A stretch of 64,000 bases of DNA from Adhaeribacter swui (GTDB lineage Bacteria > Bacteroidota > Bacteroidia > Cytophagales > Hymenobacteraceae), in assembly GCF_014217805.1 (NCBI RefSeq), contig NZ_CP055156.1, positions 4,842,585 through 4,906,584 of the forward strand, given 5' to 3'. Under the pieces are notes generated by a model. It was not told the DNA's origin, did no database searches, and saw only the letters and a program-made list of their open reading frames with translations. The position numbers were made by a program, and so were the translations under genes. This document shows, piece after piece, positions 7,859 to 60,723 of the stretch; position 1 is the first letter of the stretch, and every line of letters begins with the position of its first letter.

Positions 7859-8629
7859 ATGATGGAGATAGCGCCCTGGCTTAAAGCTGGATTATGGGGT
7901 TTGTTGGCTGGTTCGGCGTTATTGTTGGGCGCGGCCATTGGTTATTTTGCTCCTATCCGGCAGCGGTTGGTAGCAGGCATTATGGCTTTTGGCAGTGGGG
8001 TATTAATTTCGGCTTTATCGTTTGACTTAATGGACGAAGCCTTTGAGCAAGGCGGGTTTACTGCAACGGGCCTGGGCTTTTTAGGGGGAGCTGCCATCTA
8101 CACTTTCGCCAATTGGTTACTCAACCAACGGGGCGCTAAACACCGGAAACGCTCAGGAAACCAGCAAGCCAACGAGCAGGAAAATTCGGGTAGTGGCACC
8201 GCTTTAGCTATTGGCGCTTTAATCGACGGTATCCCCGAATCCATTGTTATTGGCATTAGCATGATTAAAGGAGGTACGGTAAGTTTAGTAGCCGTTATCG
8301 CCATTTTTCTTTCGAACTTACCCGAAGGATTGTCCAGTTCGGCGGGCATGAAAAAAGCGGGGCGTTCCGTAAATTATGTAATTGGCGTTTGGGGCTTTAT
8401 AGCGCTGGCTTCCGGGTTAGCTTCTATTGCGGGTTATTCTGTTTTCGGCCAGTTTTCCGATGAGGTTATTGCTTCTATTACGGCTTTAGCCGCCGGCGCT
8501 ATTCTGGCCATGCTCGCCGATACCATGATACCGGAAGCTTTTGAAGAAGCGCATGATTTTACTGGTTTGATTACTGTTATTGGTTTTTTAACAGCCTTTT
8601 TATTAAGTCGTTTAACCGAAGGTGCTTAA
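7859..8629 (+). CDS. ZIP-family metal transporter
   Basis: 256 residues with about eight hydrophobic helices. Helix 4 carries IGALIDGIPESIVIG and helix 5 carries SNLPEGLSSSAGMKKAG, the conserved polar/PE motifs of ZIP permeases, which move Zn(II) or related divalent metals into the cytosol. The usual histidine of helix 4 (HxxP) is replaced by Asp in DGIP, seen in the large ZIP-like subgroup of bacteria whose substrate is often unassigned. A charged, cytoplasmic loop with HRKRSGNQQANEQE separates helices 3 and 4. Two ATGs stand in tandem at 7859 and 7862; either may be used. Its 3' side is the convergent space holding repeat copy A. Confidence 0.82.
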   Translation: MMEIAPWLKAGLWGLLAGSALLLGAAIGYFAPIRQRLVAGIMAFGSGVLISALSFDLMDEAFEQGGFTATGLGFLGGAAIYTFANWLLNQRGAKHRKRSGNQQANEQENSGSGTALAIGALIDGIPESIVIGISMIKGGTVSLVAVIAIFLSNLPEGLSSSAGMKKAGRSVNYVIGVWGFIALASGLASIAGYSVFGQFSDEVIASITALAAGAILAMLADTMIPEAFEEAHDFTGLITVIGFLTAFLLSRLTEGA

Positions 8630-8759
8630 TAGAAGAGCTATAAAGTAATTTTTAAAAATTTTAATTTGGAAGGCTGTTGCTCATTTAATTACTGATGAAT
8701 ACTGTCGCTAGTTGCGTTGTCCTCACCACCTGTACCAGATTTTGTCTCTATGACGCCTA

Positions 8760-8992
8760 CTATGGCGCGGAAGTTACTTCCGTGACTTAATGATCAAGAT
8801 GGTCAAAAGTTCTCGTTCGCATAGCCACTGTTCTAGCTTTTATTTCTACTTGGAGTTGTTTCATAGCTGAGGTTCTGTTCTTTTTGTCTTGACACAAAAA
8901 GAACCAAAAAAGTCAAGACGCTAAAAACTCGCTGACCGCTTAGACAGTTTAGCGTCATCTTTTGCACCTGGTTAAGGCTATTTATTGCATAG
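8760..8992 (+). repeat. Dispersed structured repeat, copy A
   Basis: A non-coding element of about 233 bp that recurs in inverted orientation at 59436-59671. Shared landmarks in order: a palindrome CGGAAGTTACTTCCG (8768-8782); TCGTTCGCATAGCC; a hairpin GTTCTTTTTGT/ACAAAAAGAAC (8877-8887 with 8894-8904); an overlapping inverted repeat GTCTTGAC/GTCAAGAC (8886-8893 with 8912-8919); GACGCTAAA/TTTAGCGTC (8917-8925 with 8948-8956); and a tail with GCACCTG and GGCTAT...GCATAG. It lies between the convergent ZIP and cyclophilin genes and has no open frame of note. See findings for the base-pair covariation. Confidence 0.85.
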
Positions 8993-9091: not shown

Positions 9092-9553
9092 TTAGGCAGT
9101 TTCCTGAATTTCAATTTTCTCGATGCGGTCACCGGCTTTGATTTGGTCAATTACTTCCAGGCCTTCTACCACTTTACCAAAGCAAGTATGGTTTCGGTCT
9201 AAGTGAGCCGTGTTGTTGCGGCTGTGGCAGATAAAAAATTGAGAACCTCCGGTATTGCGGCCGGCGTGCGCCATTGATAAAACGCCGCGATCGTGGTATT
9301 GATTATCGCCGGTTAATTCGCAATCAATTTTGTAGCCAGGTCCGCCAGTACCGGGCATGCCTTTTGCCCCTTCGCGGGAATTAGGGCAACCACCCTGAAT
9401 TACAAAATCCGGAATAACGCGGTGAAAGGTTAAACCATCATAAAAGCCTTTTTGCGCTAAGTCAATAAAGTTCTTAACTGTTTTGGGTGCATCCTTTTCG
9501 TAGAATTCCACTTTCATCACCCCTTTTGCAGTTTTTATTTCCGCCGTTTTCAT
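9092..9553 (-). CDS. Cyclophilin-type peptidyl-prolyl cis-trans isomerase
   Basis: 153 residues, the length of the minimal single-domain cytosolic cyclophilin. Catalytic and binding motifs are intact: [13 protein letters not shown] near residues 43-55 (catalytic Arg), GGSQFFICH near 102-110, and [14 protein letters not shown] near 117-130. It catalyses isomerisation of X-Pro peptide bonds during folding. No signal peptide, so it acts in the cytoplasm. It starts at ATG 9553, about 26 bp from a TAATTTTG promoter element, and is followed by its own terminator, so it is probably monocistronic. Confidence 0.93.
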
Positions 9554-58296: not shown

Positions 58297-59361
58297 ATGT
58301 CTTCAGTGGTTAAAGTTGGTTTAATTGGCTACGGTATGGCCGGGCAGGTATTTCATGCCCCCATTATTACCAGCGTGCCAAGTTTAGAATTAACAAAAAT
58401 AAGAGCTACCAATCACGAACACCGGAAATTAGCTTTAGAGCGTTACCCCGATGTAGAACTGGTAAACGAATCTAACGAAATAATACAGGATGAAGCCATT
58501 GATTTAATAGTAATAGCTACGCCCAACGACTTACATTATTCTTTAGCCGAGGCAGCTTTGCTGGCCGGTAAACACGTGGTAGTTGATAAACCATTTACAA
58601 TAACTGCTGCCGAAGCCGACAAATTAATTGCCTTGGCCGAAAAGCAAAATAAATTACTTTCGGTGCACCACAACCGGCGTTGGGATAGTAATGCCCGCAC
58701 GCTACGTAAAATTATTGCCGGCAATTTTGTGGGCCGTATTGTGGAATTAGAAATTCATTTCGACCGGTACCGTCCGTATTTACGTCCGGGCGCCTGGCGC
58801 GAAGAAGATACCCCGGGCTCTGGCATATTGTATGATTTAGGCGCGCACCTCCTCGACGAAGCCCAGTGCTTGTTTGGTTTACCCGATTTTATTACCGCCG
58901 ATGAACGCATTCAAAGAACGGGCGGCCAAACCATTGATAATTTTACCGCAGTTTTGGACTATGAAGGTTTAAAAGTTACTTTAAAAGCCGGGATGTTGGT
59001 GCGGGAACTAGGCCCAACTTACGTGTTGCACGGAGAGCAAGGCAGTTTTGTAAAATATGGCACCGATGTGCAGGAAGCCGCTTTAAAAGCCGGACAACAT
59101 CCGAAAAATACACCTTATTGGGGGGTAGAGCCGGAAAGCAACTGGGGATTATTAAATACCGAGTACGAAGGTCAGCATATTACCGGAAAAATTGAAAGCG
59201 AGCCAGGCGATTACCGGGAGTATTTTGTAAATGTATACCAAGCCATAACCGAAGGAGCAGCCCTGGCCGTAACCGCCGAACAAGCCCGCAACACCATCCG
59301 CCTGATTGAACTGGCCCGCCAAAGCAGTGCCGAAAAACGAACGCTGCCTTTTAGCCTTTAA
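58297..59361 (+). CDS. Gfo/Idh/MocA-family oxidoreductase, cytosolic
   Basis: 354 residues. N-terminal Rossmann fold VGLIGYGMAGQVFHAP, then VIATPNDLHYSLAEAAL and VVDKPFTI (the EKP-type motif with Asp in place of Glu), and the alpha/beta domain with LYDLGAHLLDEAQCLFG, where the catalytic His/Asp lie. It uses NAD(P) to oxidise or reduce a sugar or inositol. It has no signal peptide, in contrast to the Tat-bearing homologue at 60828. It is convergent with the Tat isomerase gene, with repeat copy B in between. Confidence 0.88.
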   Translation: MSSVVKVGLIGYGMAGQVFHAPIITSVPSLELTKIRATNHEHRKLALERYPDVELVNESNEIIQDEAIDLIVIATPNDLHYSLAEAALLAGKHVVVDKPFTITAAEADKLIALAEKQNKLLSVHHNRRWDSNARTLRKIIAGNFVGRIVELEIHFDRYRPYLRPGAWREEDTPGSGILYDLGAHLLDEAQCLFGLPDFITADERIQRTGGQTIDNFTAVLDYEGLKVTLKAGMLVRELGPTYVLHGEQGSFVKYGTDVQEAALKAGQHPKNTPYWGVEPESNWGLLNTEYEGQHITGKIESEPGDYREYFVNVYQAITEGAALAVTAEQARNTIRLIELARQSSAEKRTLPFSL

Positions 59362-59435: not shown

Positions 59436-59671
59436 CTATGCAACAGATAGCCTTAGACAGGTGCAGAGAATGACGCTAAACTGTTCGAGCGGTCAGCGAG
59501 TTTTTAGCGTCTTGATTTTTTTGGTTCTTTTTGTATCAAGACAAAAAGAACAAGACCTAAACTATGAAACAACTTCAATCTGATATAAAGCAACAGCTAA
59601 GGCTATGCGAACGATAGCTTTTATCTTTCAGCCTTAATTTGCAAGTCACGGAAGTAACTTCCGCGCCATAG
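59436..59671 (-). repeat. Dispersed structured repeat, copy B
   Basis: Reverse-oriented relative of 8760-8992; by eye most positions agree, with the inverted repeats best kept. Landmarks: CGGAAGTAACTTCCG (59649-59663); hairpin GTTCTTTTTGT/ACAAAAAGAAC (59524-59534 with 59541-59551); GTCTTGAT/ATCAAGAC (59509-59516 with 59535-59542); GACGCTAAA/TTTAGCGTC (59472-59480 with 59503-59511). A degenerate second copy of the first module follows at 59687-59715. It lies in a convergent intergenic space. Confidence 0.85.
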
Positions 59672-59744
59672 AGTGCTTTATGAATCGCAATTCACGAAAG
59701 TTAATTCGCGCTATAATGGGGCGTTCCCAGAAGTTAGAAGCAGG

Positions 59745-59802: not shown

Positions 59803-60723
59803 TTAAATAAATTTAAAACCCCACTCTTTCATTATTTCTAAATCTTCTTGTATGCAGGCCAAAGGCGTTTTACCCTGGTAAGATTCCTGTTCAATAATAA
59901 AGTGTTTGGTGCCACCCATTTTACGTCCAAGTTCTACTATTTCTTTTACCGGAACTACTCCTTTACCCAGAATCGTACTTTCGTACCCGCTCATCGAGCC
60001 TTGGTCGCTTTTAATTTCGTCTTTCACGTGCATGGATTCAAAACGCCCGGGGTACTTTTTCATGATGTCCAAAGCCCGGCCGCCAGCACCGTACATGTTA
60101 CCAATATCCAGTTGCTGGGCAACTAGTTTTGCATCGGTGTTCTGCATGATAATGTCAAACATAGTCATGTTGTTGAGCTTGGTGTAAAACTCAAAATCGT
60201 GATTGTGGTAACCAAACTTAACGCCTGATTTTTGACATAATTCCCCGCATTTATTAAAAACCTCCAGAAATCGCTTTAAACCATCTAAATCTTTACGTAA
60301 ACTTTCATCCATCGAGGGGCTAATTACAAACTGCTGCCCAACTTCTGCTGAATCGGCTACCGTTTTTTTCCAATTGTCGGTAAAATCTTTGGTAGCAGCA
60401 TCGTAATGTTGTTTGCCTAAAACAGAGTGACCGGTGGGCATGTTTAAGCCTAAATCAGCTAAAATTTTCTTGAATTCTACTGGAGTAGAGCCGTAAAATT
60501 TACCATTGGCGTATCCGGCGTGTTCTACGTGCTTGTAACCCATTTTGGCAATTTGCTGCAAAGTACCCCGTGGGTCGGCTTTCATTTCGTCCCGCACCGA
60601 ATACAACTGAATGCCCAGTAATTCTTTCGGGGGTTTAGCGGCCAGTAGCTCACGCGCCCATAAACTGGAACCTGCCAGTGCCATAGCACTGGTTTTAAGA
60701 AAAGTTCTGCGGGTAGATTTCAT
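59803..60723 (-). CDS. Tat-exported sugar phosphate isomerase/epimerase-like protein
   Basis: 306 residues. A twin-arginine signal (STRRTFLKTSAMALAGSS, residues 3-20) precedes a TIM barrel of the xylose-isomerase-like superfamily: GIQLYSVRDEMKADPRGTL near 37-55, FGYHNHDFEF near 169-178, QLDIGNMYGAG near 204-214, SMHVKDE and FIIEQES near 270-276 give the metal ligands. Export folded through Tat suggests a bound metal cofactor and periplasmic action on free or oligomeric sugars. It lies downstream of the Tat Gfo/Idh/MocA gene on the same strand. Confidence 0.87.
   Translation of the reverse strand: MKSTRRTFLKTSAMALAGSSLWARELLAAKPPKELLGIQLYSVRDEMKADPRGTLQQIAKMGYKHVEHAGYANGKFYGSTPVEFKKILADLGLNMPTGHSVLGKQHYDAATKDFTDNWKKTVADSAEVGQQFVISPSMDESLRKDLDGLKRFLEVFNKCGELCQKSGVKFGYHNHDFEFYTKLNNMTMFDIIMQNTDAKLVAQQLDIGNMYGAGGRALDIMKKYPGRFESMHVKDEIKSDQGSMSGYESTILGKGVVPVKEIVELGRKMGGTKHFIIEQESYQGKTPLACIQEDLEIMKEWGFKFI

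Follow-up and report, generated by a model that had tools for sequence, protein, structure and literature searches.

A dispersed, modular REP-like element with a predicted pseudoknot core in Adhaeribacter swui and its recurrence in Bacteroidota

The locus and the make-up of the element

The window, i.e., the whole stretch of 64,000 nucleotides of Adhaeribacter swui DNA analyzed here, contains two copies of a short non-coding element in opposite orientation. Copy A (8760-8992, + strand) lies between the convergent open reading frames (ORFs) 7859-8629 (+) and 9092-9553 (−), and copy B (59436-59671, − strand) lies between 58297-59361 (+) and 59803-60723 (−); the convergent placement described by the sequence-only reading is therefore correct for both, as is its end-to-end alignment of the two copies, which are 82% identical with the whole query covered. 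Between the − strand gene and the element there is in each case a hairpin resembling a terminator, which was found on the + strand list only and is not beyond chance (0.6 and 0.4 expected).

A BLAST search of the own genome with copy A returned 41 rows, comprising 40 copies of 80-100% identity, which were aligned and are referred to below as the own copies, and one short match to the first 29 nt of copy A alone. As 40 of 104 candidates were scored, the count is a lower bound; with two further motif sites, it rises to at least 42 copies, as the proposal of a many-copy family had anticipated. No ORF of at least 90 aa overlaps any of the 40 own copies, as judged with a simple ORF caller.

In this genus the element is modular, consisting of a REP-like unit, a variable spacer, and a 178-nt core, usually followed by an A/T-rich palindrome and often by another repeat. 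In copy A (+), the REP-like unit ACTATGGCGCGGAAGTTACTTCCGTGACTT, with the hairpin CGGAAG-TTA-CTTCCG, occupies 8759-8788, the spacer 8789-8814, and the core 8815-8992 (GTTCGCATAG ... TTGCATAG; 40 copies aligned, 59 sequences in the genus core alignment), the last part of which, at 8957-8992, was distinguished by eye as a 3′ tail module ending in TTGCATAG. In copy B (−), the core spans 59436-59612 and the REP-like unit 59643-59671, and by our own reading of the sequence a second, diverged REP-like unit stands in tandem at 59689-59716. Inspection by eye also showed the tail module a second time downstream in some loci (L003, L007, and L026) and a dispersed repeat, TGTCATTCAGGAGGAACCTATTTAGCTACG, past the A/T-rich palindrome downstream of several own cores, such as those of L006, L013, L014, L017, L022, and L027.

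Fold of the core

In copy A, stem 1 (8877-8904, +) is an A/T-rich helix of 11 bp formed by 8877-8887 with 8894-8904, which encloses the loop CTTGAC (8888-8893). The A-rich linker CAAAAAA (8905-8911; U-rich on the other strand) leads to GTCAAG (8912-8917), which pairs with the loop as pseudoknot helix 2, and hairpin 3 follows at 8918-8955 (8918-8925 with 8948-8955, apex AACTCGCTGACCGCTTAGACAG). The corresponding parts of copy B, on the − strand, are stem 1 at 59524-59551 (59541-59551 with 59524-59534), the loop CTTGAT at 59535-59540, its partner ATCAAG at 59511-59516, and hairpin 3 at 59472-59511 (59503-59511 with 59472-59480), the first base of which is also part of ATCAAG.

The 8-nt complementarity from which the sequence-only reading had proposed an H-type pseudoknot or a switch between two hairpins is present in both copies, as GTCTTGAC (8886-8893) and GTCAAGAC (8912-8919) in copy A and as GTCTTGAT and ATCAAGAC in copy B. 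However, the pairing stands and its length does not: the bases at either end of an 8-bp helix are already used by stem 1 and by hairpin 3, with both of which it would be in competition, and therefore only 6 bp (8888-8893 with 8912-8917, CTTGAC/GTCAAG) fit the pseudoknot together with both hairpins. The resulting signature is an A/T-rich hairpin of 8-11 bp with a 6-nt loop, CTTGA(T/C), that pairs with (A/G)TCAAG across an A-rich linker as an H-type pseudoknot; a second hairpin with the apex AACTCG/CTC-R-RACAG then follows in the genus and, by eye, in several other genomes. A hairpin 3-like apex, CTCGCTGCGCTCAGACAG, was found again by eye in G024. In two loci of other genomes (L035 and L037, from G001 and G007), a palindromic repeat, CCTTCCGCCCT..AAGGGAAGG, was seen by eye within the 3′ arm of stem 1, where it disrupts the pseudoknot hairpin.

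Folding energy is a poor guide to this structure. As a nested RNA fold, the core of copy A is unremarkable (z −1.38, with 20 of 200 shuffles as good), and the whole copy A element folded as DNA is slightly better (z −2.32, with 5 of 200 as good). The case for the predicted fold lies in the comparison between copies, not in folding energy.

Distribution of the motif

The motif TTTTKBCTTGAYVMAAAAN{4,22}RTCAAG has 2 sites in the window and none in 100 shuffles of it. A pattern combining stem 1 with the loop pairing matched 82 of the 395 genomes sampled from the phylum and, by genus, 40 of 171, the own included; the reversed-pattern control gave 0 for every entry listed. That the core belongs to a pseudoknot family widespread in the phylum had not been foreseen. 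The distribution is patchy, as 313 of the 395 sampled genomes are without the motif, the copy number reaches 48 (G024), and the motif is missing from all three genomes that represent other genera of the family in the sample (G079, G173, and G394). With strict filters, a model of stem 1 and hairpin 3 built from 32 genus sequences recovers at least 41 of the 395 genomes. In three loci of G354 (L336, L337, and L339), the pseudoknots stand in facing inverted pairs approximately 180-440 bp apart, an arrangement that is REPIN-like.

In the named collection, at least 119 stretches match the pattern. Among the 80 matches listed, 75 bear names that we take to be those of Bacteroidota, phyla being presumed from the organism names, and the remaining five listed come from two Balneolaceae, Fodinibius, Propionigenium maris, and a Phycisphaerales MAG. 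Propionigenium maris, presumably a member of Fusobacteriota, has two copies of the motif (L249), in both of which the pairing is complete, and this occurrence suggests transfer between phyla.

At the gathering score, Rfam 15 matched one tRNA only and not the element in the window, and gave no match in 12 loci of other genomes. At E ≤ 1, five genus loci gave 12 sub-threshold matches, one of them, Atu_C9, over the core of copy A (22.6 bits versus a gathering score of 40), which was taken as chance. The plasmid and phage collections contain no match to the core of copy A, and no description of the element was found in the open-access literature, to which the search was confined, subscription papers being outside its scope. 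A published primer downstream of BT1222 of Bacteroides thetaiotaomicron contains TTTTGCCTTGATGCAAAA (PMC12548429). On these comparisons of sequence, the core is a copy of an apparently structured element with wide recurrence in the phylum and without a match to any Rfam family here.

Covariation of the helices

Pairing was counted over 226 loci, with one site per locus, several loci from one genome in some cases, and one locus (L123) from the own genome. The closing pair of stem 1 is T-A in 119, C-G in 53, G-C in 47, and otherwise in 7, the next pair is G-C in 142, T-A in 78, C-G in 2, and otherwise in 4, and the next four outer positions are paired in 200-211 loci against shuffled maxima of 123-153. 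In helix 2, the outermost pair is T-A in 159, C-G in 57, A-T in 2, and otherwise in 8, two of which are T-G. The inner five loop pairs are near-invariant, partly because the search pattern fixes CTTGA and TCAAG, and covariation is thus seen at one of the six pseudoknot pairs only; since the inner five hardly vary, they are conserved but offer no evidence for pairing. The loop CTTGA(C/T) is also kept in 57 of the 59 genus core copies, which come from a whole-element search and not from the pattern. A variant of the downstream strand, CGCAAG, which leaves four of the six loop pairs, recurs in L008, L014, L028, L032, L039, L400, and L420.

An alignment of 60 sequences (the first 60 of 65, of one length class, chosen by the pattern that fixes CTTGA and TCAAG) has 96.6% of its cells paired versus 82.1% in shuffles, and its covariation score is 0.313 versus 0.079 in shuffles and at most 0.062 in slides; the signal is lost when the partners are shifted by one column. 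Two of the five measures are not beyond shuffles: the pairs changed on both sides (8) were reached by 78 of 500 shuffles, and the further pair types (18) by 41 of 500. The core shows covarying helices of the kind that mark structured RNAs, in helix 2 at the outermost pair only. The compensatory C-G to T-A change first noticed between copies A and B is supported, as two-sided changes recur when copies are compared with one another, when orthologous positions are compared, and over the phylum as a whole.

These counts bear on the reading that no single strand folds at all and that the repeats are palindromes bound by protein as double-stranded DNA, or simply a duplicated segment. Covariation can also arise between the half-sites of an inverted repeat, and the minimum free energy of copy A is not exceptional, as such a reading would allow; however, two crossing complementary sets covary, helix 2 only at its outermost pair, and the one-column shift of partners abolishes the signal, which makes this reading very improbable. 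Chance as an explanation is likewise disfavored by the results.

Which strand would fold was approached through G-T pairs and folding energies. Over eight pairs in 206 unique sequences, which include the own-genome locus L123, 21 G-T pairs occur on the given strand and 54 A-C, equivalent to G-T on the other strand. The other strand folds better by 6 kcal/mol on average and is lower in 185 of 228 dissimilar elements, whereas flanking controls lean the opposite way by 2.5; genus loci are included in these energy comparisons by design. Under dinucleotide shuffles, the advantage disappears (z −2.85 versus −3.05, n = 110 of 228, p 0.26), and therefore neither strand is preferred. RNA and single-stranded DNA both stay candidates for the folded molecule, and the early leaning toward RNA is not sustained once composition is controlled.

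The REP-like unit, its transposase, and signs of mobility

The sequence-only reading had treated the first ~30 nt as part of the element at large, without recognizing them as a separate palindrome tied to a REP-associated tyrosine transposase (RAYT). This unit, TATGGCGCGGAAGTTACTTCCGTG, has 38 sites in the own genome at up to 3 mismatches, against 0 for the reversed-pattern control. In 33 of the 40 own copies, a form of it precedes the core by 14-42 nt, as measured from ..CCGTG to the core, and in three sister species 23 of 51 copies have one within 90 nt of the core. In the sister species G004, and likewise in G005, it occurs three times around the gene of a 183-aa protein, which NCBIfam NF047646 identifies as a RAYT in both (bit scores of 113 and 114 against a cut-off of 80). 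The canonical GT(A/G)G tetranucleotide is absent 5′ of the hairpin, where the sequence is ACTATGGCGCGG, and the unit is therefore not classed as a canonical GT(A/G)G REP; as a multicopy extragenic palindrome with copies flanking a RAYT, it is of a known kind, a RAYT-associated REP in the broad sense. The element is thus a composite of a REP-like palindrome of a RAYT family and a structured core.

In the own genome, the Y1 search gave three matches, none of them to the 183-aa RAYT despite the 38 REP-like units, which are possibly orphan repeats there. One match is a 176-aa RAYT of a different type (93 bits), which by eye adjoins another repeat, GGCGCGAGCGTCC..CGCTCGTGTC, and this pattern was also matched beside similar 176-aa proteins in G004 and G005. 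The latter repeats form a second REP-like family with its own 176-aa RAYT (L112, L376, and L377), share the GGCGCG..CGTG frame of the element's own unit, and also occur downstream of cores in L002, L012, L021, and L023.

Among 33 copies, no target-site duplication was detected, as matching flanks at k of 3 to 7 number 4, 2, 1, 0, and 0 versus shuffled means of 5.0, 1.3, 0.4, 0.1, and 0, and the terminal repeat of the genus copies is short and imperfect, ACTATG...CATAGT only; the comparison with MITEs that had been suggested at first is not supported by the target-site result. Nor was a recurrent partner protein found, the largest cluster comprising 9 of 244 loci, with loci lacking the exact motif skipped.

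The nick site of Rep proteins of the phiX174 and pC194 type is CTTG^ATA, which the CTTGA(T/C) loop of the element resembles, a likeness that serves as a lead only. The element may accordingly be imagined as a substrate for single-stranded DNA transposition, with the loop as the nick site of an unlinked HUH endonuclease. Such a role would agree with a loop that is kept while the stems vary over the 226 loci, where the pattern fixes CTTGA, and in the genus copies of the whole-element search, with the lack of a target-site duplication, and with the presence, beside the core, of the RAYT-linked palindrome in 33 of the 40 own copies. Secondary structures described as ‘atypical’ are reported to flank the RAYTs of subclass 2.6 in Bacteroidetes, the repeats of which, too, are reported without GT(A/G)G (PMC6006769). 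However, none of 30 Y1 loci, part of a longer list of Y1 matches, has the pseudoknot within 1.5 kb, and no protein recurs nearby. Moreover, no nick site is known to us with an equivalent of the downstream segment that pairs with the loop, and we consider this role unlikely.

Gene context and history of the copies

The neighbors of the 40 own copies are convergent in 15 cases, (−,−) in 11, (+,+) in 6, and divergent in none, with one side uncalled in 8. For the 32 own copies with both neighbors called, measured against the 29 gaps of the window, divergent contexts are depleted (0/32 versus 7/29, p 0.004) and convergent contexts enriched (15/32 versus 4/29, p 0.006). Across the phylum, 152 sites with both neighbors comprise 56 (−,−), 42 (+,−), 36 (+,+), and 18 (−,+), counted as one site per locus with several loci per genome and the own-genome locus L123 included; this count excludes 70 sites at edges, 19 duplicates, 3 masked sites, 39 that overlap ORFs, and 18 without neighbors. 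The phylum-wide bias is weak (convergent p 0.05).

Linkage to one gene class was rejected as a general rule, since polysaccharide genes adjoin the motif in some genomes and other genes elsewhere. Clusters of same-strand pseudoknots lie amid surface-polysaccharide genes in L167, L170, and L098-L099 (G346, G075, and G278), and in L170, by eye, TAC/TAT microsatellites stand between several of the units, with no intervening ORFs. A Bacteroidota-type promoter pattern matches none of the 40 own copies on either strand.

An H-type pseudoknot with an A-rich linker is what a cis-regulatory leader or riboswitch might contain, and the clusters in polysaccharide gene regions of some genomes would suit one. 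Against this, orientation to the neighbors is mixed over the 152 phylum sites, the divergent context is missing from the 32 own copies with both neighbors called, and Rfam gave no match at the gathering score; we find this reading very improbable.

Of 51 copies in three sister species (G003, G004, and G005), some of them partial, 21 share flanks with an own copy, corresponding to 13 of the 40 own copies, and the orientation is the same in all 21, so that these positions are most simply inherited. At these 21 positions, the outer loop pair is unchanged in 9 comparisons, 5 show a change on both sides, 1 has C-A, and the CGCAAG variant, which breaks the two outer loop pairs, accounts for 5; the two-sided changes become 6 with L402/L013, which reads CTTGAT...ATCAAG and was scored as ‘one not WC’ through an alignment gap. 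In 12 ortholog pairs, identity is 95% in the pseudoknot and 93% in hairpin 3, compared with 70% for the 5′ part and 75% for the tail, and orthologs do not resemble each other more closely (82%) than paralogs do (84%). Taken together, these two results would mean that the fold is under constraint, that the copies date from an old burst, that conversion has acted, or some combination of these. Flank identities of 0.84-0.87 are close to the unrelated baseline of 0.77 and were left out of the argument.

Copy A is absent, by eye and by motif, from all six syntenic loci (G001 and G003-G007; G002 lacks synteny), and on this comparison it is an insertion relative to them or was lost in all of them. 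The interpretation given by the sequence-only reading is supported in part. The neighborhood of copy B is not conserved in the six loci examined, and no inference on its history is drawn.

The shared positions, their uniform orientation, the far better conservation of the pseudoknot and hairpin 3 than of the adjacent parts of the core, and the convergent enrichment in the own genome would all suit a resident functional element, i.e., an RNA or DNA structure beside the 3′ ends of genes that is kept by selection in place and that forms ends, insulates, or binds protein, like the functions of BIMEs, with old copies and negligible mobility now. However, the weak context bias across the phylum, the absence of copy A from six of six syntenic loci, and the patchy distribution count against residence, and the chance-level terminator-like hairpin between the − strand gene and both window copies carries little weight. 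We regard this as a tentative, minority possibility.

Interpretation

The most likely reading, to which we assign a probability of about one half, is a dispersed, non-autonomous, REP-like element, the folded single strand of which is read by a putative factor. The element, probably non-autonomous, would fold when single-stranded, either as a transcript or as single-stranded DNA at replication or transfer, and a putative unlinked factor would read the near-invariant CTTGAY loop displayed by the fold. Copies would arise by copying into intergenic space beside gene 3′ ends. The remaining copies would be under constraint to keep the fold, which implies that the structure acts in place or that selection or conversion keeps it competent; old copies would be kept and others gained or lost.

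Several known systems offer partial parallels. The REP/REPIN (BIME) elements of RAYTs are likewise extragenic, multicopy, and palindromic, and the 5′ ~30 nt are such a unit; however, this unit lacks the canonical foot, the 178-nt core contains a pseudoknot and is not beside Y1 genes, and none of the 40 own copies has an inverted partner REP within 90 nt downstream of the core. Bacterial MITEs are also short, non-coding, and dispersed, and the short, imperfect ACTATG/CATAGT ends of the genus copies might be compared with theirs, whereas the element has no target-site duplication and its fold is conserved at old positions. Telomerase RNA and SAM-II are H-type pseudoknots with a triple helix, and the opposite strand of the element would have a U-rich linker crossing an A-tract helix; this likeness is a lead only, and for the element transcription and a ligand would be hypothetical, with either strand a candidate for the fold. 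The STAXI motif is a repeated pseudoknot for which folding as single-stranded DNA or RNA, also conceivable for our element, has been discussed (PMC2864571). As described there, it occurs in other taxa, has UUCG loops, and lies near DNA-handling genes (PMC2864571). Our element differs in that it has no Rfam match at the gathering score and no recurring gene family of that sort nearby.

A bolder and rather improbable extension is that these are small mobile elements spread through the phylum, in which the pseudoknot is the unit of selection and the folded strand is copied in trans by a putative unlinked enzyme. By analogy with telomerase RNA, the folded strand would perhaps be the opposite one, with its U-rich linker in the groove of the A-tract helix. 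If true, the element would be a bacterial analog of SINEs or a single-stranded DNA transposon that presents its recognition site in the loop of a knot.

Extragenic dispersed repeats are common; a conserved pseudoknot in approximately one-fifth of the sampled Bacteroidota without an Rfam match is unusual. The CTTGAY loop and its partner offer a concrete target for asking whether a repeat family spreads and persists via a single-strand fold, and intergenic sequence that at present has no label in these genomes would gain one.
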